Of a stretch of 64,000 nt of DNA, positions 1 to 16,110 are shown piece by piece. Under the pieces are notes generated by a model. That model had not been told where the DNA came from and made no database searches. It worked only from the letters and a program-made list of their open reading frames with translations. The stretch comes from Magnetospirillum sp. XM-1 (lineage in GTDB: Bacteria; Pseudomonadota; Alphaproteobacteria; Rhodospirillales; Magnetospirillaceae). The position numbers and the translations under genes are program-made. The DNA lies in NCBI RefSeq assembly GCF_001511835.1, contig NZ_LN997848.1, forward strand, positions 2,446,001-2,510,000, read 5' to 3'. Within the stretch, counting starts at the first letter, position 1. Every line of letters begins with the position of its first letter.

Positions 1-875
1 TCCACCTGGATGGCCTCGCGGTCGGCGTGGCGGCCCTGGTTGGTCTCGCGCCCCGCCTTGGCGACGGGGGCGAAGCGGGGCAGCTCGGTCAGCCGCCGCC
101 ACTGCACGTCCGAGCCGATGGCGACGAAGATGTAGCCGTCCGCCGTGGGATAGGCGTTGGTGGGGATGAACTTGCGGTGCTCGTTGCCGCAGCGCGTGAT
201 CTCGATGGGATCGCAGCCGAAATCCACCAGCGGCAGGGTGGTGATCAGCCAGGACGCTGCCGCCTGCAGCATGGAGACGTCGATGCGCGAGCCCTTGCCC
301 GTCTCGGCCCGCTCGGCCAGCGCCAGACAGACCCCGGCATAGACCTCGTCGCCGGCCTTGAGATCGATGATCGGCACGCCGGCCAGGGTGGGCGGGCCGC
401 CCGCCTCGCCGGTCAGCTCCATGTAGCCGGCCATGGCCTGCAGCGCCGGGTCGTAGCCGGGCACGTCGGGATAGTCCGGCCCCATGGCCGAGATGCCGGC
501 CCAGATCAGGTCGGGCTTCACCTTGGACAGGGTCTCGTAGTCGATGCCCAGCGGCTTATAGCGCGACGGCAGGGTGTTGGAGCAGAACACGTCGGCATTA
601 AGCGAGCGGACCAGATGGCGCAAGACCTCCTGGCCCTTGTCCTCCTTGAGGTTGATGGCCACCGCCTCCTTGCCCACGTTGGGGGCGACGAAGTAGGAGC
701 GGCGGTCGTCGTCGGCCACCACCGAGCCGATATAGCGGTTGGGATCGCCCGGCAGGCCGGGGCCCGCACCGAAGGATTCGATGCGGATCACCCGCCAGCC
801 CAGGTGGACGAAGCGCAGCGTCGCATAGGGCAGCGACAGCGCCTGTTCCATGGAGAGGACGACGCGCGGCTTCAT
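1..875 (-). CDS. CaiB/BaiF family CoA-transferase (3' end outside window)
   Basis: Family III CoA-transferases move CoA between carboxylic acids in the cytoplasm without a free intermediate. The leftward frame is open from ATG at 873-875 to the window edge (about 291 codons), so the C-terminus is missing. Visible family features are the N-terminal Rossmann-type start with [12 protein letters not shown], the [10 protein letters not shown] helix, and the segment [16 protein letters not shown], whose Asp aligns with the catalytic Asp that carries the acyl anhydride in formyl-CoA transferase. The start overlaps the stop of the upstream molybdopterin subunit by ATGA, so the two are translationally coupled. 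The likely role is activating the operon's substrate, or recycling CoA from a product acid such as succinate. The family call is firm; the substrate is unknown. Confidence 0.88.
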
Positions 876-3169
876 AGCGGCCGTCCTTTCAGCGCCGAAT
901 AGACCCGCTCGGGCGTGAAGGGCAGGCTGGAGATGCGCACGCCGGTGGCGTTCTCGATGGCATTGGCCACGGCCGCCGCCATGCAGATGGACGGGGCCTC
1001 GCCCACGCCCTTGGCGCCCTGGGGGCCCTCGCCGTCCATGGTCTCGATGAACTGAATGTCCATCTCGGGGATTTCCGGCGCGGTGATCAGCTTGTAATCG
1101 CGGAAGGCGGGGTTGACCAGATGGCCTTCGACCACCGGCATGTCCTCGCACAGCGCATAGCCCTGGCCCATGATGATGCCGCCCTCGATCTGGCCCTCGA
1201 TGCCCATCTCGTTCAAGACGCGGCCCACGTCGTGGGCGGCCCAGACCTTGAGCAGCTTGACGATGCCGGTGTCGGTGTCCACCTCCACCTCCACCACCTG
1301 GGTGGCCCAGGCGTAGGCGGCCGAGACGTCGCCCTTGAAGCCCTTGTCCTGGTGGACCGAGGGCGGCTCATAGTAGTTGGTGGTCATCACCAGTTCGGCC
1401 TTGTCCGAGAAGTGCAACTGGCGCAGCATCTTGCCCAGCGGCATGATCTTCTCGCCGTCGCTGGCGCGCACGATGTTGCCGCCCTTGAGGTCCATCTCCT
1501 CGGCCGCCATGTTGGACACGGTGGCGGCGGCGGCCAGGATCTTGTCCTTGGCCTTGCGCGCCGCGCCGATGGCCGAGTTGCCGGCGATGAAGGTGGTGCG
1601 GCTGGCATGCACGCCCACGTCCCACGGCGTGATGTCGGTGTCGTTGTTGACCACCGTCACCGCGCTCATGGGCACGCCCAGCTCCTCGCATACCAGCTGG
1701 GCCAGCACGGTCTCCGAGCCCTGGCCGATCTCGGACGCGCCGGTCATGATGGTGACGTGGCCGAAATCGTCGAGCTTCAGGATGGTGCCGCAGCCGTCTG
1801 AAGGGTAGATCTTGGCGCCGCCGCCCACGTGCAGCATGGAGGCCATGCCGACGCCCCGGCGAATGCCGGACAGCCCCTTGGCGGCGCCCAGCGCCTTGCG
1901 CTTCTCGGCATAGCCAGAGCGCCCGGCGGCGGTCTCCAGGCAATCCTTGAAGCCGCAGGTCTTGAAGTGCATGCCCTGGCCGGTGATCTCGCCCGCGACT
2001 TGCGCGTTCTTCAGGCGGAATTCATAGGCGTCGATGCCCAGCGCGTCGGCCAGCTTGTCCATCTGCTGCTCGATGGCGAAGGTGGCCTGCAGGTTGCCGT
2101 AGCCCCTGAACGACCCGGCGAAGGGGTTGTTGGTGTAGACCGCCTTGGTGTGGTAGCGGCAGTGGGGCACCCGGTAGAGCGAACTGAAGGTCTGCATCAT
2201 CACGAAGGGGATGGTCGCCCCCCACGAGGTGTAGCCGCCGTTGTCCAAGAGAACGTCCACGGTGCGGAAGGTCAGCGTGCCGTCCTTCTTCGCACCCGAG
2301 CGCAGGCGGATGATGGCCGGCTGGCGGGTGGGCGACGCGATGAACTCCTCTTCCCGGGTGAAGATCAGCTTCACCGGGCGGCGCGTCGCGCGGGCCAGAT
2401 AGACGGCGATGGGCTCGAAGGGATAGATGTCGAGCTTGGAGCCGAAGCCGCCGCCGATGGGCGGCTGGATGATGCGGATGCGCGACGGGTCCATGCCCAG
2501 CACCTCGGCGAACTCGCGCTTGTGCAGGAACGGCACCTGGGTGTTGGAGTACAGCGTCAGATTGCCCGACTGGGGCTCGAAATCGGCGATGACGCCCGAC
2601 ACGCCCATGCAGCAATGGGTGACGCGGTGGAGCGTGAACTCGTCCTCGACCACCACGTCGGATTCCGCCTCGCCCCGTTCAACGTCGCCATGGGCATAGT
2701 CGAAGGCCATGGCGACGTTGTCGGGCTTGCCCGCGTGGAGGACCGGGGCGCCTTCCTTGATGGAATCCCTGGGGTCGAACAGGGGGGGGAGATCCTCGTA
2801 TTCCACCTTGATCAGCTTGATGGCCGCCTGGGCGATCTCGAGGCTGTCGGCGGCCACGGCGGCGATCTCGTCGCGCTCGCAGCGCACCTTGTCGCCCTTC
2901 AAGGGCGGGTTGTCCTTGTTGACGCCGATGGGGTGGTTGGGAACGTCGGCGGCGGTCAGCACGGCGCGTACGCCGGGCAGCGCCTTGGCCGCCGAGGTGT
3001 CGATGGAGACGATGCGGGCATGGACCCGCTCGGTGCGGAGAATCAGGCCGTAAAGCTGGCCCGGCAGGTTGAGGTCCTGGATGTAGCGGGTCTTGCCCGC
3101 GACCTTTTCCGGCGCGTCCATCTTGGGGATGCGCTGGCCGATCAGGCTGGTGGATTGGGCGGCGTTCAT
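872..3169 (-). CDS. xanthine dehydrogenase-family hydroxylase, molybdopterin-binding subunit
   Basis: This is the large Mo-cofactor subunit (765 aa) of a three-subunit hydroxylase of the xanthine oxidase family, which inserts water-derived oxygen into an activated C-H bond or works in reverse as a reductase. Seen: the N-terminal a/b-hammerhead domain (GKTRYIQDL to about residue 125), the cofactor motif GGGFGSK, the stretch [29 protein letters not shown], and near the C-terminus [10 protein letters not shown], whose Glu matches the catalytic base. The copper/selenium loop of CO dehydrogenase (AYRCSFR) is absent; the equivalent reads AGSFRGYG. I start at ATG 3169 (MNAAQSTS); the frame is open further upstream only as a shadow inside the FeS gene. 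Close relatives by architecture include 4-hydroxybenzoyl-CoA reductase, furoyl-CoA dehydrogenase and nicotinate dehydrogenase. The acyl-CoA context favours a CoA-thioester substrate. Confidence 0.9.
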
Positions 3170-3179
3170 GGCGGCGTCC

Positions 3180-3662
3180 TTACTCGGCGGCTGACTGGGC
3201 GGCGGCGGCGGTGACCACCGCCTCGACGATCTTCTTGTAGCCGGTGCAGCGGCACAGATTGCCCTCGAGGCCGCGCTTGACCTCGTCCGGGCCGGCATGG
3301 GGGTGCTTGTCCAGCACGTGGCGGGATTGCACCACCATGCCCGGCGTGCAGAAGCCGCACTGGACGCCGCCCTTCTCGACGAAGGCCTGGCGCAGCGGGT
3401 CCGAGGCGTGGTCCACCGCCAGCCCCTCGATGGTGGTGATGGCGCGGCCATCGAAATCCACGGCGAACATCAGGCAGGAATTGACCGACACGCCGTCCAC
3501 CAGGATGGTGCAGGCGCCGCATTCGCCTTCGCCGCAGCCGTATTTGGTGCCGGTCAGGCCCAGATGCTCGCGCAGCAGGGCAAGCGCGCTGGTTTCGGCC
3601 GGCACCGCCAGCCGGGTGGGGGTGCCGTTGACGACACAGGAAATCTCAACGAGAGACGACAT
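3180..3662 (-). CDS. xanthine dehydrogenase-family [2Fe-2S] subunit
   Basis: Small electron-transfer subunit (160 aa, the usual family length) of the Mo-hydroxylase. The N-terminal plant-ferredoxin-type cluster shows YGCGEGECGACTI followed by NSCLM. The C-terminal four-helix domain carries CGFCTPGM and LCRCTGYKKIVEAV, the second cluster. Electrons pass from the Mo site through these two clusters to FAD. The gene sits between the FAD subunit (17-bp overlap at its start) and the Mo subunit (10-bp gap), so the three are one transcriptional unit in FAD-FeS-Mo order. The family call is secure; nothing in this subunit reveals the substrate. Confidence 0.93.
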   Translation of the reverse strand: MSSLVEISCVVNGTPTRLAVPAETSALALLREHLGLTGTKYGCGEGECGACTILVDGVSVNSCLMFAVDFDGRAITTIEGLAVDHASDPLRQAFVEKGGVQCGFCTPGMVVQSRHVLDKHPHAGPDEVKRGLEGNLCRCTGYKKIVEAVVTAAAAQSAAE

Positions 3663-4500
3663 CGCTCAGCACCTTTCCCAGGAGGTTGTGGACCAGCTCG
3701 CGGCGGTACCAGGCGCTGGCCCGCAGGTCGTCGATGGGCTTGATTTCATCGCGGGCGGTGATGGCCGCCTTGGCGATGGTCTGGGCGTCCAGGGACGCGC
3801 CCTCCAGCACGGCTTCGGTGGCCCGCCCGCGCAGCGGCGTCGGCCCCACCGCGCCGAACGCCACCCTGACGTCCGAGAGGCGTCCGCTTTCCAAGGTGGC
3901 GGCAAAGCCGATGGACACCGCCGAGATGTCGAGCGCCGGCCGCGTGCCGAACTTGACGAAGCGCGACACGGTGCGCAGCCGGGGCAGCGGAATGGAAAAG
4001 CCGGTGATCAGCTCGTCGGGGCGGCGCACTGTCCGTCCGGGTCCGGTGAAGAACTCGGCCATGGGCACCGAGCGGCGCCCCGAGGCCGACGCCAGCTCCA
4101 CCTCGGCGTCCAGCACCAAGAGCGGCACCAGGGTGTCGCCGGCCGGCGAGGCGTTGGCCACGTTGCCGCCGATGGTGCCCATGTTGCGCACCTGATCCGA
4201 GGCGAAATGGTCGGCGGCCTCGGCCAGCAGCGGCACCGCCTTGGCGATGACCGGATTGTCCTTCAGATCGTTGATGGTGGTGAGCGCGCCGATGGTGATG
4301 CGGCCCTGGGCGATGTCCACCGCCCGCAATTCAGGGATGCGGCGGATGTTGAGCAGGATGGGGCGGAAACTCACCTTGCCGGCATTGCTTTGCGGCATCA
4401 GGTCGGTGCCGCCGGCTAAGATGGTGGCGTTGCCGCCCGCCAACGCGGCAAGCGCGTCGTCCAGGCTGGCGGGGGCGAGGTAGCGTTCGATGGCGGTCAT
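3646..4500 (-). CDS. xanthine dehydrogenase-family FAD-binding subunit
   Basis: Medium subunit (284 aa) that binds FAD and hands electrons to or from an external carrier. FAD motifs are AGGTDLMP near residue 30 and TIGGNVANASPAGDT near residue 110, followed by the CO-dehydrogenase flavoprotein C-terminal domain. The protein contains no cysteine at all. It therefore lacks the extra [4Fe-4S] loop that distinguishes 4-hydroxybenzoyl-CoA reductase, which uses low-potential ferredoxin. The enzyme is more likely an ordinary dehydrogenase/hydroxylase feeding NAD or quinone than an aromatic-ring dehydroxylating reductase. It lies 14 bp downstream of the mutase large-subunit gene. Confidence 0.92.
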   Translation of the reverse strand: MTAIERYLAPASLDDALAALAGGNATILAGGTDLMPQSNAGKVSFRPILLNIRRIPELRAVDIAQGRITIGALTTINDLKDNPVIAKAVPLLAEAADHFASDQVRNMGTIGGNVANASPAGDTLVPLLVLDAEVELASASGRRSVPMAEFFTGPGRTVRRPDELITGFSIPLPRLRTVSRFVKFGTRPALDISAVSIGFAATLESGRLSDVRVAFGAVGPTPLRGRATEAVLEGASLDAQTIAKAAITARDEIKPIDDLRASAWYRRELVHNLLGKVLSDVVSR

Positions 4501-4514
4501 GCGTTTCCTCGGGG

Positions 4515-6122
4515 TTAGAACACGACGGGTTCGCGGTAGCGGCCGTAGACGGTGACCAGCCGGTCGGTGATCTCGCCGACGCTGGCATAGGCCTTCACCG
4601 CCTCGATCAGGGCGGGCATGACGTTGGTTCCGGCCCGGGCCTCGGCCTCGACCCGGTCGAGTGCGGCCTGGACCTTGCGGCCATCGCGCTCGGCCCGGAT
4701 GGCGTCGAGCGCCATGATCTGGGCCTTGGCGTCGTCCTCGTCATAGGGGTGGAACTCGACCTTGGCCTCTTCCTCCTCCTCGCGGTAGCAATTGACGCCG
4801 ACCTTGGGGAAGTCGCCCGATTCGATGCGCTTTTGCATCTCGTAGGCCTGGGCCGAGACGGCGGCCTGGGCCAGGCCTTGCGCCACCAGCGAGACGATGC
4901 CGCCCCTGCGGTCGATGTCGGCCATGGTCTCGACCATCTTGTCGCGCATCTGGTTGGTCAGCGTCTCGACGTACCAGGAGCCGCCCAGGGGATCGACCGT
5001 CTCGGTCAGGCCCATTTCCTCGATCAGGAGCTGCATGGTGCGAAGCGAGATGCGGGCCGAATGCTCGGTGGGGATGGTGTAGGCCTCGTCGAACGAGCAC
5101 AGCGCCATGGTCTGGGTGCCCGACAGGGCGCTGATCAGGGCGTAATAGGCGCCGCGCACGATGTTGTTCTCGGGCTGCTCCTTGGTCAGGCCGCCGCCGC
5201 CGCCGGCGGCGATCATGCGCATCCACATGGAGCCGGGGTCCTGGGCGCCGTATTCCTCCTTCATGATCTTGGCCCACAGGCCGCGGGCCGCGCGGAACTT
5301 GGCCACCTGCTCGAAGATGTTGCCGAAGATGTTGAAGTTGAAGGACAGCCGCCCGGCGAACTCGTCGATGGCCAGCCCGCGCTTCAAGGTCTCGTCGGCA
5401 TAGGCCTTGGCGATGCAGAAGGCGTAGGCCATCTCCTGGGCCGGGTTGGCGCCCGATTCGCGGATGTGATAGCCGCAGACGCTGACCGGGCTGTATTTGG
5501 GGGCATGCTGGGCGCAGTACTCGATGGTGTCGCCCACCAGCTTCATGGACGGTTCCACCGGGAAGATCCAGGTGCCGCGCCCGATGAACTCCTTCAGGAT
5601 GTCGTTCTGGGCGGTACCGCGCAGCTTGGCCACGTCATACCCGCGCTTTTCGGCCATCACCAGATACATGGCGATCAGGATGGCGGCCGAGCCGTTGACG
5701 GTCAGCGATACGGTGATCTGTTCCAGATCGATGCCGTCGAAGGCGACCTCGAAATCCCGCAATGTGTCCACCGCCATGCCGACGCGTCCCACCTCGCCCT
5801 CGGCCATGGGCGAATCGGAGTCGAAGCCGATCTGGGTGGGCAGGTCGAAGGCGACGTTGAGCCCCGTCTGGCCGTTGGCGATCAGGAACTTGAAGCGCCG
5901 GTTGGTGTCGGCCGCGTTGCCGAAGCCGGCATACTGGCGCATGGTCCAGGGGCGCTTGCGGTACATCTCGGCGTGGATGCCCCGGGTGAAGGGATACTTG
6001 CCCGGCTCGCCGATATGGCCGAAGCCCCCCGTCGCCTCCACGTCGGCGGCCGTATAGACCGTCTTGATCTCGACGCCCGACTCGTTGACCACGCGGCGCG
6101 GCTTCGTCTGTCGCTCGCTCAT
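4515..6122 (-). CDS. B12-dependent acyl-CoA mutase, large (substrate-binding) subunit, methylmalonyl-CoA mutase type
   Basis: TIM-barrel subunit (535 aa) of a split adenosylcobalamin acyl-CoA mutase, which rearranges carbon skeletons through radicals. Landmarks: RPWTMRQYAGFGNA, with Tyr64 at the methylmalonyl-CoA mutase Tyr (Phe in isobutyryl-CoA mutase, Ile in 2-hydroxyisobutyryl-CoA mutase); FIGRGTWIFP, with Arg182 at the carboxylate-binding Arg (Gln in isobutyryl-CoA mutase); and GYHIRESGA with the conserved His. These point to a 2-carboxyacyl-CoA substrate. Two usually strong motifs are altered. The (F/T)H(T/S)QT(A/S)G segment reads RMIAAGGGGGLT, and SLHTNSFDEA reads TMALCSFDEA, losing an active-site His. 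It is therefore a divergent member that may take a bulkier substrate. The start overlaps the small-subunit stop by ATGA. No MeaB-type chaperone gene is in the window. Confidence 0.88.
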   Translation of the reverse strand: MSERQTKPRRVVNESGVEIKTVYTAADVEATGGFGHIGEPGKYPFTRGIHAEMYRKRPWTMRQYAGFGNAADTNRRFKFLIANGQTGLNVAFDLPTQIGFDSDSPMAEGEVGRVGMAVDTLRDFEVAFDGIDLEQITVSLTVNGSAAILIAMYLVMAEKRGYDVAKLRGTAQNDILKEFIGRGTWIFPVEPSMKLVGDTIEYCAQHAPKYSPVSVCGYHIRESGANPAQEMAYAFCIAKAYADETLKRGLAIDEFAGRLSFNFNIFGNIFEQVAKFRAARGLWAKIMKEEYGAQDPGSMWMRMIAAGGGGGLTKEQPENNIVRGAYYALISALSGTQTMALCSFDEAYTIPTEHSARISLRTMQLLIEEMGLTETVDPLGGSWYVETLTNQMRDKMVETMADIDRRGGIVSLVAQGLAQAAVSAQAYEMQKRIESGDFPKVGVNCYREEEEEAKVEFHPYDEDDAKAQIMALDAIRAERDGRKVQAALDRVEAEARAGTNVMPALIEAVKAYASVGEITDRLVTVYGRYREPVVF

Positions 6123-6514
6123 TGCACCCCCTCCTTGATGAAATCGACGATGGCGGCGATCTTCGAACTGGTGGGGAAGATCCCGGTGAAGCCGAGCGCG
6201 CGCAGCTCGTCGAAATCGGGGGCCGGGATGTTGCCGCCGATCAGGCAGAGCTTGTCGCCCAATCCCCGCTCGTCGAGCAGGGGGCGCAGCTTGCGGCAGA
6301 AGGGCAGGTGGGACCCGGCCATGCTGGACAGGCCGATGACGTCGACGCCCTCTTCCAGGGCGGCGTTGGCCACGGCGATGGGGGTCTGGCGCAGGCCGGT
6401 GTAGATCACCTCGAAGCCTGCGTCGATCAGGCCGCGCACCACGATCTTGGCGCCCTGGTCGTGGCCGTCCAGGCCGGGCTTGGCCAGCAGGACGCGGATA
6501 CGGCGGTCACTCAT
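6119..6514 (-). CDS. B12-dependent acyl-CoA mutase, small (cobalamin-binding) subunit
   Basis: This 131-aa protein is a stand-alone cobalamin-binding domain. It shows the base-off signature KPGLDGHDQGAK (DxHxxG, with the His that ligates cobalt), then VIGLSSMAGSH and LIGGNIPAPDF, the usual SxL and GG loops that hold the nucleotide tail. Its length matches small subunits of archaeal-type methylmalonyl-CoA, isobutyryl-CoA and 2-hydroxyisobutyryl-CoA mutases (about 130-140 aa). I start at ATG 6514 (MSDRRIRVLL). The frame is open upstream but only as a shadow of the dehydrogenase gene, whose stop overlaps this ATG as ATGA. It pairs with the large subunit just downstream. Confidence 0.93.
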   Translation of the reverse strand: MSDRRIRVLLAKPGLDGHDQGAKIVVRGLIDAGFEVIYTGLRQTPIAVANAALEEGVDVIGLSSMAGSHLPFCRKLRPLLDERGLGDKLCLIGGNIPAPDFDELRALGFTGIFPTSSKIAAIVDFIKEGVQ

Positions 6515-7644
6515 GACGTCAGCTCCTTGCCGATGATGAGCTTGAGGATTTCGCTGGTGCCTCCCCCGATCAGGGTGAAGCGGATGTCGCGTAAGAAACG
6601 CTGCACCGGGTACTCCATGGCGAAGCCGTAGGAGGCCAGCACCCGGGCCGCCTGGTCGCAGGTCCGGGCGGCGGCTTCGGTGGCGAACAGCTTGGCCATG
6701 GCCGCCTGCTGGGCGTGGGGACGGCCCGCGTCCTTCAGCCAGGCGGCGTACCGGACCAGCTGTTCGGCGGCTTCCAGGTCGGTGGCCATCTCGGCCAGCT
6801 TGAACGACACCGCCTGGAAGGCGGCGATGGGCTTGCCGAACTGTTTGCGCTCGCCTGCATAGCGCACCGCCTCGGCCAGGGCGGCGCGGGCGACGCCGTT
6901 GGCCATGGCCCCGGTGATGATGCGGATCTCGGAGAGGATCTTGCGCAAGTGACCCTCGCCGTCGCCCACCTCCTTGCTCAGCATGTGGCTGTCGGGGACG
7001 AAGCATTCGTCGAAGGCCACTTCCGAGGTGGGCAGGGCCCACACCCCCATCTTCTCGATGGAGCGGCCGACGGTAAGGCCCGCAAAGCCCTTCTCCACCA
7101 GGAAGATGGTCAGCTTCTTCTCGGCGCCGGCGCGGGCGAACACCGTGAAGAAATCGGCCAGCGGCGCCGAGGTGATCCAGGTCTTCTGGCCGCTGATCTT
7201 CCAGCCGCCGTCCACCTTGACCGCGCTGGTGGCGATGCCGCCCAGGTCGGACCCGGCATTGGGCTCGGTCATGCAGATGGCGCCGATCTTCTCGCCCTTC
7301 AACGCCGGCTCCAGCAGGCGTCGGCGGATGTCGTCATTGCCCAGCAGCCACAGGAAGTTGGTGCCCATCAGCGCCTGCATGGCCGCCGCGCCTGCCAGTG
7401 ACAAAGAGCCTCGGGCGATCTCGGCCAGGGCCAGGCAGAAGGTGGAGAGGTCCACCCCGGCGCCGCCCACCTCCTCGGGGTAACGCATGGCGAAGAAGCC
7501 AAGGCCGCCCAGTTGGGAGAACAGCGCACGGGGGAACTGGTGGGCTTCGTCCAGCTCGGCCGCCACCGGGACCACCTCGCGATCGACGAAGCGGGCGAAG
7601 GTGTCCTGGATGGCGCGCTGGTCTTCGGTCAAATCGAAATCCAT
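6511..7644 (-). CDS. acyl-CoA dehydrogenase family protein
   Basis: FAD enzyme (377 aa) of the acyl-CoA dehydrogenase fold: an N-terminal helical domain from MDFDLTEDQRAIQDTF, a middle beta domain with ICMTEPNAGSDLGG and WKISGQKTWITSA (FAD and substrate contacts), and a C-terminal helical domain with ERKQFGKPIAAFQAVSF. The catalytic Glu of the medium/short-chain type (YEGT) is replaced in LIGGGTSEIL, as in isovaleryl-/long-chain-type enzymes where the base sits on another helix. Here that second position (before R in SEIRIITGA) reads Ile with a Glu one residue earlier, so the base is uncertain. It is probably an alpha,beta-dehydrogenase acting on a branched or cyclic acyl-CoA next to the mutase step. 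Confidence 0.9.
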   Translation of the reverse strand: MDFDLTEDQRAIQDTFARFVDREVVPVAAELDEAHQFPRALFSQLGGLGFFAMRYPEEVGGAGVDLSTFCLALAEIARGSLSLAGAAAMQALMGTNFLWLLGNDDIRRRLLEPALKGEKIGAICMTEPNAGSDLGGIATSAVKVDGGWKISGQKTWITSAPLADFFTVFARAGAEKKLTIFLVEKGFAGLTVGRSIEKMGVWALPTSEVAFDECFVPDSHMLSKEVGDGEGHLRKILSEIRIITGAMANGVARAALAEAVRYAGERKQFGKPIAAFQAVSFKLAEMATDLEAAEQLVRYAAWLKDAGRPHAQQAAMAKLFATEAAARTCDQAARVLASYGFAMEYPVQRFLRDIRFTLIGGGTSEILKLIIGKELTS

Positions 7645-7649
7645 GCCGG

Positions 7650-9326: not shown

Positions 9327-9331
9327 GGCGT

Positions 9332-11443
9332 TCAGGCCCCCTTCAGGATGTTGGCCACCAGGTCTTCGCGGCCCTTGCGGTACAGCGCGAACGAACCGGT
9401 GCGGTCGCAGACCCCGTCGAACGAGGCCGAGACGAAGATGGCGGTGGTGATTTCCTCGATCATCGCCGGGCCGGCGACCCGGTTGCCGTGCTTGAGCTTG
9501 TGGCCGTCATAGACGGGGACGGAGCGGAAGGCCTTGTCCTCGGGGACGTAGACCATGCGCTCGCCCTTGATGGCCGCCGAGCCGTCGGGGCCGGCATAGG
9601 GCTCGCTCCGCCCGGCGGGCTTGTCGGTGACGCCCGAGGCCTGGACGCGGACGTTGATGATCTCGGCCGGGACCTTCTGCTCTTCCAGCGAATAGCCGTA
9701 GAGGCGGTTGTGCTCGGCATGGAACAGCCGGGTGACGGCTGCGGTGTCGCCCGCCTCGACGGCGGCCATGGGCACCTCGAACGACACCTCGTGGTATTGC
9801 TTGAGGTAGCGGCAGTCCAGCTTGACGGCGATGCTGCGGCGATCGGCGGCGATCCGCTCGGAATTCAGCAACTCGTCGCCCTCCTTGGCCATCTCGGCGA
9901 TCACCGCCTTCAGCCGCGACCAGTCCAGTCCGTCCAGGCGCGAGACGAAAGTGCGCACGAAGTCGTGCTTGATGTCGCCCATCAGCATGCCGTAGGCGCA
10001 CAGCACCGAGGATTCGCGCGGCACGATCTGGAAGGGCATCTCCAGCTCGTCGGCGATCAGGCAGGAATGGATGGGCCCGGCGCCGCCGGCCACGATCATG
10101 GGGAACTCGCGCGGGTCGAAGCCGCGCTTGATGGTCACCTCGCGCACGCCCTGGGCCATGTTGTTGCAGATGATGCGGTACATGCCCGCCGCCGCCTCGA
10201 CCACGGAGAGGCCCAGCGGCTTGGCCACGTGCTCGGCGATGGCCTGCTCGGCGGCGGCCAGGTCCAGGCTCATGCGGCCGCCGGCGAAGAAGCCGGGATT
10301 GAGGTAGCCCAGCACCAGGTTGGCGTCAGTGGAGGTGGGACGGGTGCCGCCCTTGCCGTAGCAGGCCGGGCCGGGATCGGCGCCCGCCGATTGCGGCCCC
10401 ATGCGCAGCATGCCGCCCTCGTCGATCCAGCCGATGGAGCCGCCGCCGGCGCCGATGGTGTGGATGCCCAGCATGGGCAGCGCGATGCGGTGGCGCGCGA
10501 TCTCGCCGTCATTGACCATGACGGGGGCGTCGACCGCCATGGAGGCCTCGAAGCTGGTGCCGCCCATGTCGGTGGTGATGCAGCGGTTCTGGCCGTGGAC
10601 GTTGGCGTAGGCGAGGCCCGCGCCGGGGCCGCCCGCAGGTCCCGACAGCAGGGTGAGCGCCGACTTCTCACGCGCCACCTCGGGCGCCATGACGCCGCCG
10701 TTGGACTGGGTGATCAGCAGCAGCCCGTCGAAGCCGATGCCCTTCAGTCGTCCGGTTAACTGGTCGAGATAATGGCTGAGCTTGGGCCCCACATAGGAAT
10801 TCAGCGCCGTGGTGCTGATGCGGTCGTAGAAGCGGATGGAGGGAAGCAGGTCGGTGGACACGGTGAGATAGGCGCCGGGCAGGTGCTTGCGCACCAGTTC
10901 GGCCGCCTTGCGCTCGTGCTCGGGGTTGGCGAAGGCGTTCATGAAGCAGATGGCCACCGCCTCGACCTTCTCGGCCTTGAACAGGGCGATGGACGCCTCG
11001 ATGTCGGCGAGCGACAGCGGCTCGATCTCGCGGCCCATGCGGTCCATGCGTCCGCCGACGCCCACGCGCAGATAGCGCTCCACCAGGGGCGGCACGTTGG
11101 TGTAGCGGTTGTTGTACTGCTCCTCGCGGATGCCGCGCCGCATTTCCAGCGCGTCGCGCACGCCCTGGGTGGTGATCAGTCCGCACTTGGCCCCGGTATG
11201 GGTCAGCGTGGCGTTGGTGGTCACCGTGGTGCCGTGGACGATGGTGTCGATGGTCTTGACGAAACCGGCGAAGTCCATGGCCGGCTTGCGGCTGGCGGCG
11301 ATCTCCTCCAGCCCCTGGATCACCGCGATGGACGGGTCGTGCGGGGTGGACAGGACCTTGTGGATCCTGGGCTCGCACCCGGCCTCGGCGACGAAGAAGT
11401 CGGTGAAGGTGCCGCCGACGTCGATACCGATCTTTGTGCTCAT
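9332..11443 (-). CDS. HyuA-type ATP-dependent subunit (hydantoinase A/oxoprolinase/ketone carboxylase family)
   Basis: ATP-binding partner (703 aa) of the adjacent HyuB. It has the duplicated actin-like fold: an N-terminal phosphate-1 loop IGIDVGGTFTDFFV (residues 5-18), VHGTTVTTNATL, and a second loop CITTDMGGTSFEASM near residue 290, then GGGSIGWID and a C-terminal beta domain. Such proteins phosphorylate a carbonyl or enolate oxygen so that HyuB can hydrolyse or carboxylate it. In this operon, placed between an acyl-CoA ligase and an acyl-CoA dehydrogenase, it could open a lactam or lactone made by the Mo-hydroxylase, or carboxylate a ketone before activation to CoA. The family is certain; the reaction is open. 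Confidence 0.88.
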   Translation of the reverse strand: MSTKIGIDVGGTFTDFFVAEAGCEPRIHKVLSTPHDPSIAVIQGLEEIAASRKPAMDFAGFVKTIDTIVHGTTVTTNATLTHTGAKCGLITTQGVRDALEMRRGIREEQYNNRYTNVPPLVERYLRVGVGGRMDRMGREIEPLSLADIEASIALFKAEKVEAVAICFMNAFANPEHERKAAELVRKHLPGAYLTVSTDLLPSIRFYDRISTTALNSYVGPKLSHYLDQLTGRLKGIGFDGLLLITQSNGGVMAPEVAREKSALTLLSGPAGGPGAGLAYANVHGQNRCITTDMGGTSFEASMAVDAPVMVNDGEIARHRIALPMLGIHTIGAGGGSIGWIDEGGMLRMGPQSAGADPGPACYGKGGTRPTSTDANLVLGYLNPGFFAGGRMSLDLAAAEQAIAEHVAKPLGLSVVEAAAGMYRIICNNMAQGVREVTIKRGFDPREFPMIVAGGAGPIHSCLIADELEMPFQIVPRESSVLCAYGMLMGDIKHDFVRTFVSRLDGLDWSRLKAVIAEMAKEGDELLNSERIAADRRSIAVKLDCRYLKQYHEVSFEVPMAAVEAGDTAAVTRLFHAEHNRLYGYSLEEQKVPAEIINVRVQASGVTDKPAGRSEPYAGPDGSAAIKGERMVYVPEDKAFRSVPVYDGHKLKHGNRVAGPAMIEEITTAIFVSASFDGVCDRTGSFALYRKGREDLVANILKGA

Positions 11444-11461
11444 GGGGACGGGTCTCCGGGC

Positions 11462-12994
11462 TTAAGAGGAGGAGGATTGCGGCGCCTGGCGCGCCAGCTT
11501 GCGGATGTCGGCCTTGATCAGCTTGCCGATGCTGGTGCGCGGCAATTGCTCGGCGAAGATCACGGCGCGCGGGTGCTTGTAGCGGGCCACCTTGTCCTTG
11601 AAGAGGGCCAGCACCCCCTCCTCGGTCAGGCGGGCGCCGGGGCGGGGCACCACCACCGCCACCGGGATCTCGCCCCAGCGGTCGTCGGGGCGGCCGACCA
11701 CGGCGGCTTCCTCGATGTCGGGGCACTCGCCCAGGATGGCTTCCAGGGCGGCGGGGAAGATGTTCTCGCCGCCCGAGATGATCATTTCCTTCTTGCGGTC
11801 GTCGATGACCAGATAGCCGTCGGCGTCCAGATGGCCGATGTCGCCGGTGGCGAACCAGCCGTCTTTCAGCGCCGCCCGGGTGGCGGCCTCGTCGCGCCAG
11901 TAGCCGGTCATGATGTTGCGGCCCTTGATCAGCACCTCGCCCGACTGGCCGGCGGGCACGTCGTTGCCCTCGCCGTCCACCAGGCGCATCTCGCAATGGA
12001 CGGCGCAATGGCCGGCGACGCCCACCCTGGCGCTGTCGGCCACCCGCTGGAACACCGCCACGGGGCCGGTCTCGGTGGAGCCGAAGATCTGGATCACCGG
12101 AATGCCGCGCGCCTGGATGGTGCGCACCAGCCCGGCGGGAATGATGGTCGAGCCGGTGGTGATGCAGCGCAAGGCCGACAGGTCGGCCCCCGCCCAGCCC
12201 GGTTCGCTCAGCAGCAGGTCCAACTGGGTGGGGACCAGCACCGCCAGGGTGATGCGCTCGCCCACCAGGGTGTTCAAGGTGGTGGCGGCGTCGAAGCGGC
12301 GGTGCAGGGTGACGGTGGCGCCCGCATGCAGCGCCGGCATGGTCTGGATGTTCAGTCCGCCCACATGGAAGATGGGCAGCGTGGTCAGCACCCGGTCCTG
12401 GCTGGTCAGGTCGTGCATCTGGGTGCTGTTGACGGCGTTCCACAGCATGCCGTCCTGGGTATGGATGGCGCCCTTGGGCAGGCCGGTGGTGCCCGAGGTG
12501 TAGCACAGCAGCAGCGGGTCCTCGGCGCGGCCCTCGCCGCCGCCCAGCAGCGGCGCGGCCTCGACCATGGAATCCCAGTCCAGCCAGCCGGCGCGCGGGC
12601 CGCCGGTGCAGGCCAGGCGGGGGCCGGTGACCACCACCTTCTTGGCAGCGATGGCGTCGGCGAACTCCGGCTCGACCACCAGCAGCGAGGGCTCGGAATC
12701 GGCCATCAGCGCCAGATGCTCTACGGGAGTGAGCCGCCAGTTCAGCGGCGTGAAGATGGCGCCGATGCGCGCGCAGGCGAACAGCAGGGCGATGCTCTCG
12801 GCGTTGTTGAGGCCCAGCCACGCCACCCGCTCGCCCTTGCGGATGCCGAGCGTGCCGGACAGGGCGCCGCTGATGCGGGCGATGTGGCGGGCGAGGCCGC
12901 CATAGCTGATCTCGGCGCCCTCGTAGCGGATGGCCGGCTTGTCGGCGGCAAATCCGGCCCAGCGTTCGATCCAGTCGGAGAGGTTCATGGTCAT
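11462..12994 (-). CDS. AMP-forming acyl-CoA ligase
   Basis: Member of the ANL superfamily (510 aa) that activates a carboxylic acid to its CoA thioester through an acyl-AMP. Core motifs are all present: LLCYTSGTTGLPKGAIHT (P-loop, residues about 165-180), IFGSTETGPV, WFATGDIGHLDADGYL, DDRKKEMIISGGENIFP, and the C-terminal RTSIGKLIKADIRK, whose Lys (GK) drives adenylation. A GGAG box lies 7 nt before ATG 12994. The N-terminal domain resembles medium-chain and aryl-CoA ligases, but I cannot read the acid from sequence. It is probably the entry step of the pathway, or the step that follows HyuAB. Confidence 0.92.
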   Translation of the reverse strand: MTMNLSDWIERWAGFAADKPAIRYEGAEISYGGLARHIARISGALSGTLGIRKGERVAWLGLNNAESIALLFACARIGAIFTPLNWRLTPVEHLALMADSEPSLLVVEPEFADAIAAKKVVVTGPRLACTGGPRAGWLDWDSMVEAAPLLGGGEGRAEDPLLLCYTSGTTGLPKGAIHTQDGMLWNAVNSTQMHDLTSQDRVLTTLPIFHVGGLNIQTMPALHAGATVTLHRRFDAATTLNTLVGERITLAVLVPTQLDLLLSEPGWAGADLSALRCITTGSTIIPAGLVRTIQARGIPVIQIFGSTETGPVAVFQRVADSARVGVAGHCAVHCEMRLVDGEGNDVPAGQSGEVLIKGRNIMTGYWRDEAATRAALKDGWFATGDIGHLDADGYLVIDDRKKEMIISGGENIFPAALEAILGECPDIEEAAVVGRPDDRWGEIPVAVVVPRPGARLTEEGVLALFKDKVARYKHPRAVIFAEQLPRTSIGKLIKADIRKLARQAPQSSSS

Positions 12995-13009
12995 GCTTCT
13001 CCGTTGCGC

Positions 13010-14221
13010 TCAGACCGGGCGTTCATCGACCAGGATCACCACCGCCATGGCGGTGTCGCCGGCGGCGCAGCCGGAGAACAGGCCGTAGCCGCCGCCCCGG
13101 ATCACCAGTTCCTCGATCAGCTCGATCACGCTCCTTGTGCCCATGGGCGCCTGGGGATGGCCCCAGACCAGGGACGAGCCGTAATTGTTGATCTCGGCCA
13201 GCTTGGCCCCGGTCTCCTCGGCGAAGACGATGTCGTTGACCGTGAAGGGATTGTGCAGCTTCACCGCCTTGACCTTGTCCATGCCGATGCCGGCCTGCTC
13301 CAGGGCGCGCTTGGCGGCCGGTACAGTGGCGCGGGGCATGAAGGCGGGCTCGACCCTTTCCAAGCCGAAGCCCATCAGCCGCACCCGGATCAGCGGGTCG
13401 CGGGACAGTTCGCGGGCCTTGCCCGGCGTGGCGACGATCAGGCAGGCGTTGCCGTCGGCGGGATGGGTCTGGGCGCCGAAGGTCACGCTGCCGCCCTCCA
13501 TCACCGGCTTCAAGGCGGCCAGTCCCTCGGGCGTCGATCGGCTGACGCCCTCGTCGGCGGCCATTTCCCCGGCGGTCTTCTTGAAATTGGGGCTGGGGAC
13601 CGAGAAAGGCAGGGTCATGAAGCGCTTGAGGAAGGCGCGATCGTCGGCCAGGGCAGCGGCATACTGCTCCTCGCGGCGCAGCACCACCTCGTGCTGGCGC
13701 TCCGTGCCGATCTTGTAGCGGGCGGCGACGTTCTCGGCGGTGGCCAGCATGGACTTGGCGGTGAACGGATCGTAGGAAAAGTTCTGCATCACCCAGTCCT
13801 CGGCGCTGCCGGTGCCGCCGGCTCCGCCGGGATCGGGGTAATAGAGATGCGGTCCGTTGGAGGTGCGGTCGCAGGTGGCCGACAGCGCCATTGTGGCCAG
13901 CCCGGCCTGAATCTCGGTGGCCGCCGTCAGCAGGCAGCGCACGCCGGTGGCGCAGGCCTGCGAGATGCTGGGGCCGCCCGCCTGGGCCGCGCCGATCATG
14001 CCCATCAGCCAGGGCGCGCCGTAGAAGCAGTGCTTTTGCGGCACTGAGGTGCCCAGCACGCCGAAATCGAACGCCCCGGCCGGGATGTCGCGCCGGGCCA
14101 GCTCGGCCTTGGCCACATGGGCGGCGAATTCCATGGAGTGAAGCCGCGCCAGGCTGCCCATCCATCGGGCGAAGGGCGTCGACCAGTAGCAGCCATAGGG
14201 AATCTCGGCGAGATAGGCCAT
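13010..14221 (-). CDS. thiolase-like acyltransferase with altered active-site motifs
   Basis: This 403-aa protein has the thiolase fold of the SCP-x/lipid-transfer branch. The nucleophile is Cys90 in SISQACATGV. The usual NEAF loop reads HNPF, the GGHPxGxTG loop reads WGHPQAPMG (His kept), and the second catalytic Cys lies in FSGCAAGDT rather than CxGxG. In SCP-x thiolases of steroid and branched-acid pathways such changes accompany bulky 3-oxoacyl-CoA substrates, sometimes with a DUF35 partner; none is encoded nearby. The likely role is the thiolytic release step at the end of the beta-oxidation part of this operon. It could also be a non-thiolytic condensing homologue. Confidence 0.85.
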   Translation of the reverse strand: MAYLAEIPYGCYWSTPFARWMGSLARLHSMEFAAHVAKAELARRDIPAGAFDFGVLGTSVPQKHCFYGAPWLMGMIGAAQAGGPSISQACATGVRCLLTAATEIQAGLATMALSATCDRTSNGPHLYYPDPGGAGGTGSAEDWVMQNFSYDPFTAKSMLATAENVAARYKIGTERQHEVVLRREEQYAAALADDRAFLKRFMTLPFSVPSPNFKKTAGEMAADEGVSRSTPEGLAALKPVMEGGSVTFGAQTHPADGNACLIVATPGKARELSRDPLIRVRLMGFGLERVEPAFMPRATVPAAKRALEQAGIGMDKVKAVKLHNPFTVNDIVFAEETGAKLAEINNYGSSLVWGHPQAPMGTRSVIELIEELVIRGGGYGLFSGCAAGDTAMAVVILVDERPV

Positions 14222-14232
14222 GGGACGCGCTC

Positions 14233-14652
14233 CTAGGCGGGCAGGGCGATGCGGGCCGAGCCGGCCAGGGTCTGCTTGCCGTCCTGGTTGACGGCGGCCA
14301 GCTCGAGATCGACCACGTTTTCGCCGTTCTCCTCGGACTTGGCGGTGACCACGCCCTGGCAGGTGATGGTGTCGCCGGGGAAGGCCATGGCGGTGAAGCG
14401 GGCCGAGAACGAGCGGATGGCCGATTGCGGCACCCAGCCGGTCAGCACCTGGCCCAGGAAGGCCATGGACAGCATGCCGTGGGCGATGACGCCGGGCAGC
14501 CCACCCGAGCGGGCCTGCTCGTCGTCCAGGTGGATGGGGTTGTGGTCGCCGGACGCCCCGGCGAACAGGGCCAGCTGGGTCCGGTCGATGGCCGGCTTGG
14601 CCAGGTCGGGAATGCGGTCTCCCACCTTGACCTCGGCGAAACGGATGGTCAT
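14233..14652 (-). CDS. MaoC-type enoyl-CoA hydratase, catalytic subunit
   Basis: Hot-dog fold protein (139 aa) carrying the hydratase-2 signature: GDHNPIHLDDEQAR contains the catalytic Asp and His, followed by GLPGVIAHGMLSMAFLG. Such enzymes add water to 2-enoyl-CoA to give (R)-3-hydroxyacyl-CoA. The upstream neighbour is a second hot-dog protein without the catalytic His, so the two probably form an active/inactive heterodimer, as known for mycobacterial HadAB and ChsH1-ChsH2. The gap between the two genes is 9 bp. In this pathway it would hydrate the product of the acyl-CoA dehydrogenase. Confidence 0.88.
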   Translation of the reverse strand: MTIRFAEVKVGDRIPDLAKPAIDRTQLALFAGASGDHNPIHLDDEQARSGGLPGVIAHGMLSMAFLGQVLTGWVPQSAIRSFSARFTAMAFPGDTITCQGVVTAKSEENGENVVDLELAAVNQDGKQTLAGSARIALPA

Positions 14653-14661
14653 GTCTGCCTC

Positions 14662-15105
14662 CTACCCCTGACGGACGATTATTACGGTCCGTAAATTCGC
14701 CACCGGCCGGGTGTGCTGATTTTTCAGCAGCGTTTCGGTGACGATGAAGCGCATGGCGCCGCCCTTCTTCTCGAAGGTCTCGACCACCCTTTGCACGCCG
14801 GTGATGGTGTCGCCGGCGCAGATGGGCTCGATGTAGTCGAAGATCTGCTCGCCATGCATGGAGCGGGTCTTGTCCACGCCCAGGTCTTCCAGCACCTTGA
14901 AGGGCTGCTCGGCGTCCATGGCGATGGAGAAGGCGAAGGTGGGAGGCGCCGGAAGCGAGGTGTAGCCTGCCTTTCGCGCCGCGCTCTCGTCGGTGTAGAC
15001 GGGGTTGGATTCACCGATGGCCTTGGCGAAAAGCCGCAACCGGCCCTTCTCCACATCCACGGTGAACGGGGCATAGACTTTGCCTACAAGCTCTTCGGCT
15101 TTCAC
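14662..15105 (-). CDS. MaoC-like dehydratase, HadA-type non-catalytic subunit
   Basis: First gene of the operon, 147 aa. It resembles the FAS1-type dehydratase N-terminal family: RLRLFAKAIGESNPVYTDES, then [13 protein letters not shown]. The hydratase Asp and His are replaced (GESNPVY against GDHNPIH in the next gene), so it is expected to be the substrate-binding, non-catalytic half of a heterodimer. I start at GTG 15105 (VKAEELVGKV) because GGGAGGA precedes it by 6-7 nt; a longer frame beginning MINRRN has no plausible ribosome site and no homologous look. A TTACGG-type inverted repeat sits within its last codons. Confidence 0.82.
   Translation of the reverse strand: MKAEELVGKVYAPFTVDVEKGRLRLFAKAIGESNPVYTDESAARKAGYTSLPAPPTFAFSIAMDAEQPFKVLEDLGVDKTRSMHGEQIFDYIEPICAGDTITGVQRVVETFEKKGGAMRFIVTETLLKNQHTRPVANLRTVIIVRQG
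14682..14694. promoter_or_regulatory. TTACGG inverted repeat inside the 3' end of the first gene
   Basis: The sequence TTACGGTCCGTAA is a perfect 13-bp inverted repeat with a one-base centre. It uses the same TTACGG half-site as the two repeats upstream of the operon. It lies about 30 bp before the second MaoC gene. Half-site spacing is one base shorter than in the intergenic pair, so binding by the same TetR dimer is doubtful. Confidence 0.35.
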
Positions 15106-15164
15106 GGCGGTTCCTCCCTCTCGTTGGGCCCGGCCGCCACGGATGTTCCTCCGATTGATCATTG

Positions 15165-15180
15165 CCGGACTTGGGTCCGG
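15165..15180. repeat. CCGGAC/GTCCGG hairpin in operon leader
   Basis: A perfect 6-bp inverted repeat with a 4-base loop (CCGGAC, TTGG, GTCCGG), 60 bp upstream of the first start codon of the operon. It could be a leader hairpin or a weaker protein site. It has no T-tract, so it is not an intrinsic terminator. Confidence 0.35.
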
Positions 15181-15215
15181 TCAACGTGCTGCCGTTGTTT
15201 GAACGCTAAAATAAT

Positions 15216-15231
15216 TTTACGGACCCGTAAA
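15216..15231. promoter_or_regulatory. putative TetR operator 1
   Basis: TTTACGGACCCGTAAA: perfect 7-bp arms (TTTACGG/CCGTAAA) around a 2-bp centre, typical in size for a TetR-family dimer site. Its centre is 23 bp, about two helical turns, from that of operator 2, so two dimers could bind the same face of the DNA. The assignment to the neighbouring tetR product is inference from position. Confidence 0.6.
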
Positions 15232-15235
15232 CAGC

Positions 15236-15257
15236 TTTTTTACGGTGGCGTAAAAAA
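15236..15257. promoter_or_regulatory. putative TetR operator 2
   Basis: A 22-bp inverted repeat with 9-bp arms: six T then ACG on the left, CGT then six A on the right, around GTGG. Its core TTTACGGTGGCGTAAA matches operator 1 at all arm positions but one. It lies about 68 bp before the tetR start and could repress both directions. Confidence 0.6.
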
Positions 15258-15325
15258 TTCCATTGTGCGTTGCGATGCTTCCGGCTAGGGTCTGACTTAG
15301 GGCAATACGTTAGGAATGGGCCGGG

Positions 15326-15967
15326 ATGAGCCGACGGATTCAGATATTGAGGCGGGCCACCGAGGTGTTCGAACGCCAGGGGGTCAACCGCACGTCCATC
15401 GAGGACATCGCCAACGCGGTCGGCATCAAGCGCGAGGCCATCTATTATTATTTCAAGAGCCGCGCCGACATCTTGCTGAAGATCATCCTGCCGCAGAGCA
15501 CCTCGCTGGTCATGGGGCTGGGCGCGATCATCAATTCCAACCTGCCGGCCGAGGAGAAGCTGGAAGCGGCCATCCGCAACCATCTCGACCGCTTCAATCC
15601 CAACTACCTGGAAATGACCGTGGCGCTCCGCGAGGACCATTTCCTCGAGGACGAGAGCAAGGCGGCGGAACTGCGGGGCGTGTGGAACGAATACACCCAC
15701 CTGTGGACCCGCCTGATCGAGGAGGGGCAGGAAAAGGGAATCTTCAAGCCGGGCCTCGACGCCCGCATGGTGGCCAACGGCGTGCTCGGCATGTGCAATT
15801 GGATGTCGCGCTGGTACGACCCCGGCAAATCCATCCCCATCGAGAAGATCCTGGAGATCTTCTTCACCATGGTGGCGCACGGCATCGTCGACCCCGCCGC
15901 CGCGACCAAACCCCCGACGGCGGCGAAGAAGCCCGGCCGGTCGCGCAAGGCCGCTCCCAAGGGCTGA
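15326..15967 (+). CDS. TetR/AcrR family transcriptional regulator
   Basis: DNA-binding regulator (213 aa) with a classic N-terminal TetR helix-turn-helix: ILRRATEVFERQGVNRTSIE, DIANAVGIKREAIYYYFKSR (residues 7-46). The ligand domain that follows has no diagnostic motif, and the C-terminus is a basic Ala/Lys/Pro tail. It is transcribed away from the catabolic operon across a 220-bp gap with two matching inverted repeats. It most likely represses the operon and itself until an acyl-CoA intermediate binds, as for many TetR proteins of CoA pathways. The inducer is unknown. The start codon has only a weak ribosome site (AGGA about 10 nt upstream). Confidence 0.9.
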   Translation: MSRRIQILRRATEVFERQGVNRTSIEDIANAVGIKREAIYYYFKSRADILLKIILPQSTSLVMGLGAIINSNLPAEEKLEAAIRNHLDRFNPNYLEMTVALREDHFLEDESKAAELRGVWNEYTHLWTRLIEEGQEKGIFKPGLDARMVANGVLGMCNWMSRWYDPGKSIPIEKILEIFFTMVAHGIVDPAAATKPPTAAKKPGRSRKAAPKG

Positions 15968-16110
15968 GGCGTCGACGGCATATATCCGCCATCACGCCTC
16001 CCTGAGATTCGGCATATTATTTTAGTTATAAACTGCTTCTGGCGGCCCGGGGCTATGCCCCTGGAGTGCGATGGCCATCGATGGAGACGGCTTCGCACCG
16101 GTGGCTTGCT

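Follow-up and report, generated by a model that had tools for sequence, protein, structure and literature searches.

An iaa-type operon predicted for anaerobic indole-3-acetate degradation in Magnetospirillum sp. XM-1, with a variant beta-oxidation module and regulator

Here we describe a run of genes at the left end of a 64,000-nucleotide stretch of the Magnetospirillum sp. XM-1 genome (contig NZ_LN997848.1, positions 2,446,001 to 2,510,000, forward strand; hereafter, the window), which very probably represents an iaa operon for the oxygen-independent degradation of indole-3-acetate (auxin). The run occupies the minus strand from position 1 to 15105 (Table 1). Read from the promoter end, it encodes a MaoC pair, a thiolase, an AMP-dependent acyl-CoA ligase, HyuA, HyuB and an acyl-CoA dehydrogenase, followed by the B12-binding and large subunits of a mutase, the FAD, 2Fe-2S and Mo subunits of a hydroxylase and a family III CoA-transferase. 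A preliminary description of the window had reported these thirteen genes as a tight operon, and we confirm both the arrangement, in which the spacing ranges from -17 (an overlap) to +18 bases, and the presence of every family that it named. The operon is cut by the left edge of the window and extends 2.6 kb beyond it; the last 324 bases of the CoA-transferase gene are followed on the same strand by a short-chain dehydrogenase/reductase (SDR) gene and then by a gene for a branched-chain-type substrate-binding protein, after gaps of 28 and 228 bases, respectively. For the first MaoC gene we prefer the GTG start at 15105, which lies behind a GGAGG-like site recurring in three relatives (alignment by eye), over the alternative ATG at 15162.

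Table 1. Features of the operon and its promoter region (window positions unless L002 is given)
Feature	Position	Strand	Basis and remarks
TetR-family regulator	15326..15967	+	Divergent from operon; Pfam TetR_N + TetR_C_24
Two inverted repeats, putative TetR operator	15215-15232 + 15235-15258	.	Palindrome scan of window
MaoC-type hydratase subunit 1 (FAS1_DH_region / HadA-like)	14662..15105	-	Family search; start from alignment
MaoC-type hydratase subunit 2 (MaoC_dehydratas / HadB-like)	14233..14652	-	Family search
Thiolase	13010..14221	-	Family search; 69-70% identity to six Aromatoleum loci
AMP-forming acyl-CoA ligase, candidate indoleacetate-CoA ligase (IaaB-like)	11462..12994	-	51-53% to six Aromatoleum loci
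HyuA, ATP-binding subunit of predicted 2-oxoindoleacetyl-CoA lactam hydrolase (IaaCE-type)	9332..11443	-	72-74% to Aromatoleum
HyuB, second subunit of predicted lactam hydrolase, 558 aa	7650..9326	-	81-83% to Aromatoleum
Acyl-CoA dehydrogenase, predicted IaaF (decarboxylating benzylmalonyl-CoA dehydrogenase)	6511..7644	-	GGG motif; ortholog primer sites in L042
B12-binding small subunit, acyl-CoA mutase (IaaGH)	6119..6514	-	B12 His conserved
Large subunit, acyl-CoA mutase (IaaGH)	4515..6122	-	Tyr64, Arg182, His219
FAD subunit of Mo hydroxylase	3646..4500	-	Family search
2Fe-2S subunit of Mo hydroxylase	3180..3662	-	Family search
Mo-binding subunit of hydroxylase	872..3169	-	Family search; presumed active-site Glu
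Family III CoA-transferase (IaaL-type)	1..875; whole gene L002:9676-10875	-	CoA_transf_3; 69-72% to Aromatoleum
SDR	L002:8817-9647, outside window	Same strand as operon	Family search
Substrate-binding protein, ends operon	L002:7425-8588, outside window	Same strand as operon	Family search

A collection in which 84,980 species are represented by a single genome each was scanned with the large mutase subunit, and the best 80 of the 266 relatives obtained were fetched with their flanks; the mutase is 74-97% identical to those of these 80 comparison loci, to which the counts below refer. Presence was scored by tblastn at an identity of at least 40% for 11 core genes, namely those of the thiolase, the ligase, HyuA, HyuB, the acyl-CoA dehydrogenase, the two mutase subunits, the three Mo-hydroxylase subunits and the CoA-transferase. 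All 11 occur together in 45 loci, with the same order and strand in 39; in five of the six deviating loci the best ligase match (42-46%) falls after the CoA-transferase, and in the sixth the CoA-transferase precedes the Mo genes. Of the other 35 loci, many are short or cut contigs, but some whose flanks are long also lack a core gene at this identity level: the thiolase in L055 and L070, the ligase in L056 and HyuAB in L066 and L076, for example. The six-gene block from the dehydrogenase to the Mo subunit retains its order and strand in every one of the 73 loci that have all six genes; the operon is therefore not a chance arrangement. MaoC and/or SDR genes were found in seven loci.

This core has a precedent. 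The anaerobic indoleacetate pathway to 2-aminobenzoyl-CoA and the iaa locus were found in Aromatoleum evansii KB740 and A. aromaticum EbN1 (PMC9613470), and a second source assigns to the EbN1 operon the ligase IaaB, the CoA-transferase IaaL, the mutase IaaGH, the dehydrogenase IaaF, the binding protein IaaM and the regulators IaaQ and IaaR (PMC8360864). In the latter paper, the activities of IaaB and IaaL are attributed to earlier measurements, IaaGH is identified as the mutase forming (2-aminobenzyl)malonyl-CoA, and a decarboxylating oxidation by purified Aromatoleum IaaF is shown on a surrogate substrate. All six Aromatoleum loci that we fetched, including that of A. evansii KB740, hold the 11 core genes in the order seen here, at per-gene identities of 51-83%: 69-83% for the thiolase, HyuAB, dehydrogenase, mutase and CoA-transferase, 52-73% for the subunits of the Mo enzyme and 51-53% for the ligase, an AMP-binding protein encoded at the same place in the operon and our candidate for IaaB. 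A binding-protein gene, a candidate counterpart of that for IaaM, closes the XM-1 operon. The XM-1 operon differs in containing the MaoC pair and the SDR, which are absent from the six Aromatoleum loci, in having a divergent TetR gene in place of an upstream GntR-type gene, and in its diverged ligase and only distantly similar binding protein. Because the iaa operon is an existing, characterized pathway, the earlier statement that no described pathway contains all these enzymes is refuted, although the MaoC pair and SDR are not part of the six Aromatoleum loci; the high interest once attached to the cluster rested on a supposed absence of precedent, which does not hold. In our view, the locus holds an already known operon that has a new host and a varied beta-oxidation module and regulator.

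Several features of the individual enzymes point in the same direction. All IaaF members are stated to carry GGG in place of YEG (PMC8360864); the dehydrogenase of the window reads LIGGGTSEI, and GGG is present in all 76 loci that have the gene. The published primers for EbN1 iaaF match L042 (A. buckelii) exactly, at 8455-8476 and 9564-9585, and both sites fall in the dehydrogenase gene located between those of HyuB and the mutase; among the 82 loci searched for these sites, L039 carried just the second, and none of the remaining 80 carried either. The CoA-transferase has an Asp, which we take to be of the catalytic type, in all 69 loci with the gene.

A hydantoinase-like hydrolase of 707 + 564 aa, IaaCE of EbN1, has been proposed to open 2-oxoindoleacetate in an ATP-dependent manner (PMC8453981), and HyuA and HyuB have 703 and 558 aa. 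Both ATP phosphate motifs of HyuA are intact (P1, DVGGTFTD; P2, DMGGT), and among the 56 loci with the gene they are kept wherever covered (52/52 and 54/54, respectively). The best family models for both subunits are those of caprolactamase, and the pair shares subunit sizes and phosphate motifs with the branch of ATP-dependent lactam-opening enzymes formed by CapAB, 5-oxoprolinase and hydantoinase; the scores, however, are below the curated cut-offs (685 bits for HyuA and 393 for HyuB, against 1000 each), and the context is that of auxin. The HyuAB superfamily also includes acetone and acetophenone carboxylases, in line with one hypothesis in the preliminary description, in which HyuAB carboxylates a ketone that the ligase then activates for degradation. 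We regard this as extremely improbable, because HyuB resembles the 564-residue IaaCE-beta of EbN1 in length, whereas the carboxylase subunits compared have 684 and 776 aa, because the operon genes include no further carboxylase subunit, and because HyuA scores more than 300 bits higher against caprolactamase alpha than against ApcC (333 bits); a carboxylase route would, moreover, leave the Mo hydroxylase and the mutase without a role. As a separate observation, iaa-type HyuAB is missing between the ligase or thiolase and the dehydrogenase in six loci (L066, L076, L078, L057, L063 and L079), three of which have instead a HyuA of only 35-37% identity on the opposite strand, the sequence of the other three stopping too short on the upstream side for a judgment; in such loci, another enzyme may have taken over the opening of the lactam.

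The mutase carries Tyr64, Arg182 and His219 in the large subunit, all kept in 80/80 loci, and the B12-binding His of the small subunit is kept in 78/78 loci with that gene. We take the three former residues to be equivalent to Y89, R207 and H244 of methylmalonyl-CoA mutase (1REQ), in which the Tyr/Arg pair presumably holds the free carboxylate; our literature search found no published account of what the Tyr89/Arg207 pair does. The enzyme belongs to the fold family of the methylmalonyl- and 2-hydroxyisobutyryl-CoA mutases and shares its split B12 subunit with 2-hydroxyisobutyryl-CoA mutase, whose large subunit is also its best PDB match (540 bits, versus 411 for human methylmalonyl-CoA mutase). 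This likeness would fit a mutase that isomerizes a non-carboxylated branched acyl-CoA of the pivalyl-, isobutyryl- or 2-hydroxyisobutyryl-CoA type; however, 2-hydroxyisobutyryl-CoA mutase (4r3u) has Ile and Gln where the window mutase has the invariant Tyr and Arg, and we give this alternative almost no credence. Subunit length, family scores and active-site residues were our grounds for rejecting ketone carboxylation and pivalyl-type mutase chemistry.

The Mo enzyme has the three-subunit layout of the 4-hydroxybenzoyl-CoA reductase/xanthine dehydrogenase family, and a Glu that we take to be its active-site residue is present in all 70 loci in which the position is covered. The best NCBIfam model for the Mo subunit is the alpha subunit of 4-hydroxybenzoyl-CoA reductase, at 629 bits against a cut-off of 994.6; the other two comparisons with this reductase gave 111 against 404.6 and 159 against 257.8 bits. 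We rejected that identity, as no subunit reaches the curated cut-off; the FAD subunit scores 239 bits with XdhB versus 111 with the reductase beta subunit, and the enzyme lies below the curated cut-offs of every listed model. Across the loci, the Mo subunit falls into two types, with less than 60% identity to that of the window in 22 loci and more than 63% in 53. The type varies even among Aromatoleum species (for example, L042 versus L045), and a ThiS/MoaD-like gene adjoins the Mo subunit gene in 11 loci, all of the type with less than 60% identity.

On the basis of these assignments, the following pathway can be proposed. Indoleacetate would be taken up with the aid of the binding protein and converted by the ligase to indoleacetyl-CoA, and the three-subunit Mo enzyme would then presumably place a water-derived oxygen on C2 to give 2-oxoindoleacetyl-CoA. 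HyuAB would open the lactam at the expense of ATP, yielding (2-aminophenyl)succinyl-CoA; after the CoA-transferase has shifted CoA to the other carboxylate, the B12 mutase would rearrange the product to (2-aminobenzyl)malonyl-CoA, which IaaF would oxidize and decarboxylate to 2-aminocinnamoyl-CoA. Hydration by the MaoC pair, oxidation by the SDR and cleavage by the thiolase would release 2-aminobenzoyl-CoA and acetyl-CoA, and the benzoyl-CoA reductase pathway, whose genes lie at another place in the genome, may continue the degradation; the part played by the MaoC pair and SDR, and this last step, are what we infer in the present analysis. The other hypothesis of the preliminary description, in which a heterocyclic acid is hydroxylated, ring-opened by HyuAB and processed through a 2-carboxyacyl-CoA rearrangement, essentially restates the known iaa chemistry, presumably including the hydroxylation by the Mo enzyme.

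Certain points weigh against an assignment to indoleacetate. For this organism every step is deduced from orthology, and the gene-by-gene iaa assignment is taken from later papers. Confidence is lower for the exact acid that is taken up than for the ring-opening core, because the ligase and the binding protein are poorly conserved; the binding-protein relatives in L003-L005 match the Aromatoleum-type protein at 28-30%. In addition, a GntR-type gene lies near 48 of the 80 loci, including all six from Aromatoleum, and was not found in L003-L005, TetR being in its place here. The same divergence of ligase and binding protein would suit a pathway in which they set the specificity and the core degrades an indolic or N-heteroaryl acetic acid other than indole-3-acetate. 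This we consider improbable, since the core chemistry appears to require an aryl-acetic acid whose ring nitrogen adjoins the attachment carbon, and since the neighborhood of related loci points to indoleacetyl-CoA: genes of the indolepyruvate ferredoxin oxidoreductase families, named on representatives only (L033, L063 and L078), occur in the flanks of 20 of the 80 loci, and in 19 of the 63 whose sequence includes the CoA-transferase plus 2.5 kb or more on its downstream side. This enzyme makes indoleacetyl-CoA, and its genes therefore provide independent support for indolic chemistry. Among the matches listed in a limited literature search, there was no report of iaa genes in Magnetospirillum, and we do not claim a first report.

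The XM-1 version of the iaa operon shows modest novelty in its beta-oxidation module and regulator. A full-length fused 3-hydroxyacyl-CoA dehydrogenase/enoyl-CoA hydratase gene occurs in 18 loci, none of which has MaoC or SDR genes; neither module was detected at the thresholds used in the other 55, including the six Aromatoleum loci, and five of these 55 have a partial match to the fused gene. Because flanks are cut in many loci, this distribution is no more than suggestive of MaoC/SDR and the fused gene replacing each other. A MaoC hydratase with an SDR would proceed via the (R)-3-hydroxyacyl-CoA, and the fused hydratase/dehydrogenase represents the (S)-route. The TetR gene (at least 40% identity) is found in only three loci, L003-L005, and a binding protein of the window type likewise in three of the 80. 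In the divergent promoter region, both TTTTACG...GTAAA palindrome units were seen by eye in an alignment with L114, L115 and L116, and this double palindrome is present in all four aligned sequences of the Paramagnetospirillum group; it is probably the TetR operator, and no sigma-70-like site was found next to the palindromes.

At E 1e-100 or better, IaaF is matched in seven of the 55 family genomes and in four of the 17 genus genomes, counting that of XM-1. One genome (G034) has two such matches; its contig C38 (L117; P. caucaseum-like) carries a second, divergent iaa cluster, in which the dehydrogenase is 80% identical and two CoA-transferase genes stand in a row. The cassette also occurs in Paramagnetospirillum caucaseum SO-1 (L004), a species apparently of the same genus as XM-1, and in Magnetospirillum sp. 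SS-4 (L005). DNA homology to L003 and L004 spans from just past the binding-protein gene to the TetR stop codon and then ends, homology to L114 likewise ends there, and the 2.8 kb that follow the TetR-side edge in G046 are without a match. Just beyond the binding-protein end lie a tyrosine recombinase (integrase) and an IS91 transposase (L002:339-2406), together with two inverted IS5 copies of 1,288 bases that are 99.9% identical (L002:3073-4360 and 5073-6360). The right flank is chromosomal backbone; a 2.9-kb flank query was matched in all 17 genus genomes, mostly in part, and the matches begin at window positions 16107-16112 in three relatives. As for an empty insertion site, no part of the 30 kb preceding the window on its left side gave a match next to the right flank in three relatives, except for a single 77-base hit in one. 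The sharp homology edges and the nearby IS5 pair, integrase and IS91 transposase on the left make lateral movement likely. Whether the operon entered the Paramagnetospirillum group as a laterally moved cassette, bringing its own MaoC/SDR branch of the (R)-type and a TetR switch with a double operator, is a question on which we see the balance as even.

Elsewhere in the genome, two further mutases, the benzoyl-CoA reductase genes and an IorA-like gene speak for the iaa assignment. The two mutases are 42% and 37% identical to that of the operon, and we take them to be methylmalonyl-like and ethylmalonyl-like, respectively. The benzoyl-CoA reductase genes bcrABCD and the 6-oxocyclohexenecarbonyl-CoA hydratase gene oah score above NCBIfam cut-offs at 2.886-2.893 Mb. 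A second, divergent benzoyl-CoA-reductase-like set, whose A, B and C subunits fall short of the curated cut-offs, lies beside an electron-transfer flavoprotein (ETF) pair at approximately 2,276,700-2,283,000 (G000:C1; L120). The IorA-like gene, at 4.123 Mb, scores 647 bits against a cut-off of 650.9 and is followed by an IorB-like gene, approximately 3 kb from another ETF pair; the IorA model also has a weak match (126 bits) to a frame of approximately 1,150 codons at 2.533 Mb.

PMC8360864 describes the electron acceptor that IaaF uses under anaerobic conditions as unknown. ETF alpha/beta genes were found beside the operon in none of the 80 loci (tblastn, E 1e-8, with one own-genome pair as the query, so that a divergent or more distant ETF is possible). 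A gene for an NnrS-family membrane protein lies near the operon, on either side, in 11 of the 80 loci (L005, L037, L047, L063, L066, L075-L079 and L081), 10 of which belong to the 63 loci defined above by the CoA-transferase and length of downstream sequence; these are too few to argue for NnrS as the redox partner of IaaF. Altogether, an apparently orphan combination of enzymes is, in all probability, the anaerobic auxin pathway, placed in a genome of the Paramagnetospirillum group, and the 80 comparison loci bear on the electron acceptor of IaaF, on two exchangeable Mo hydroxylases and on exchangeable beta-oxidation modules.

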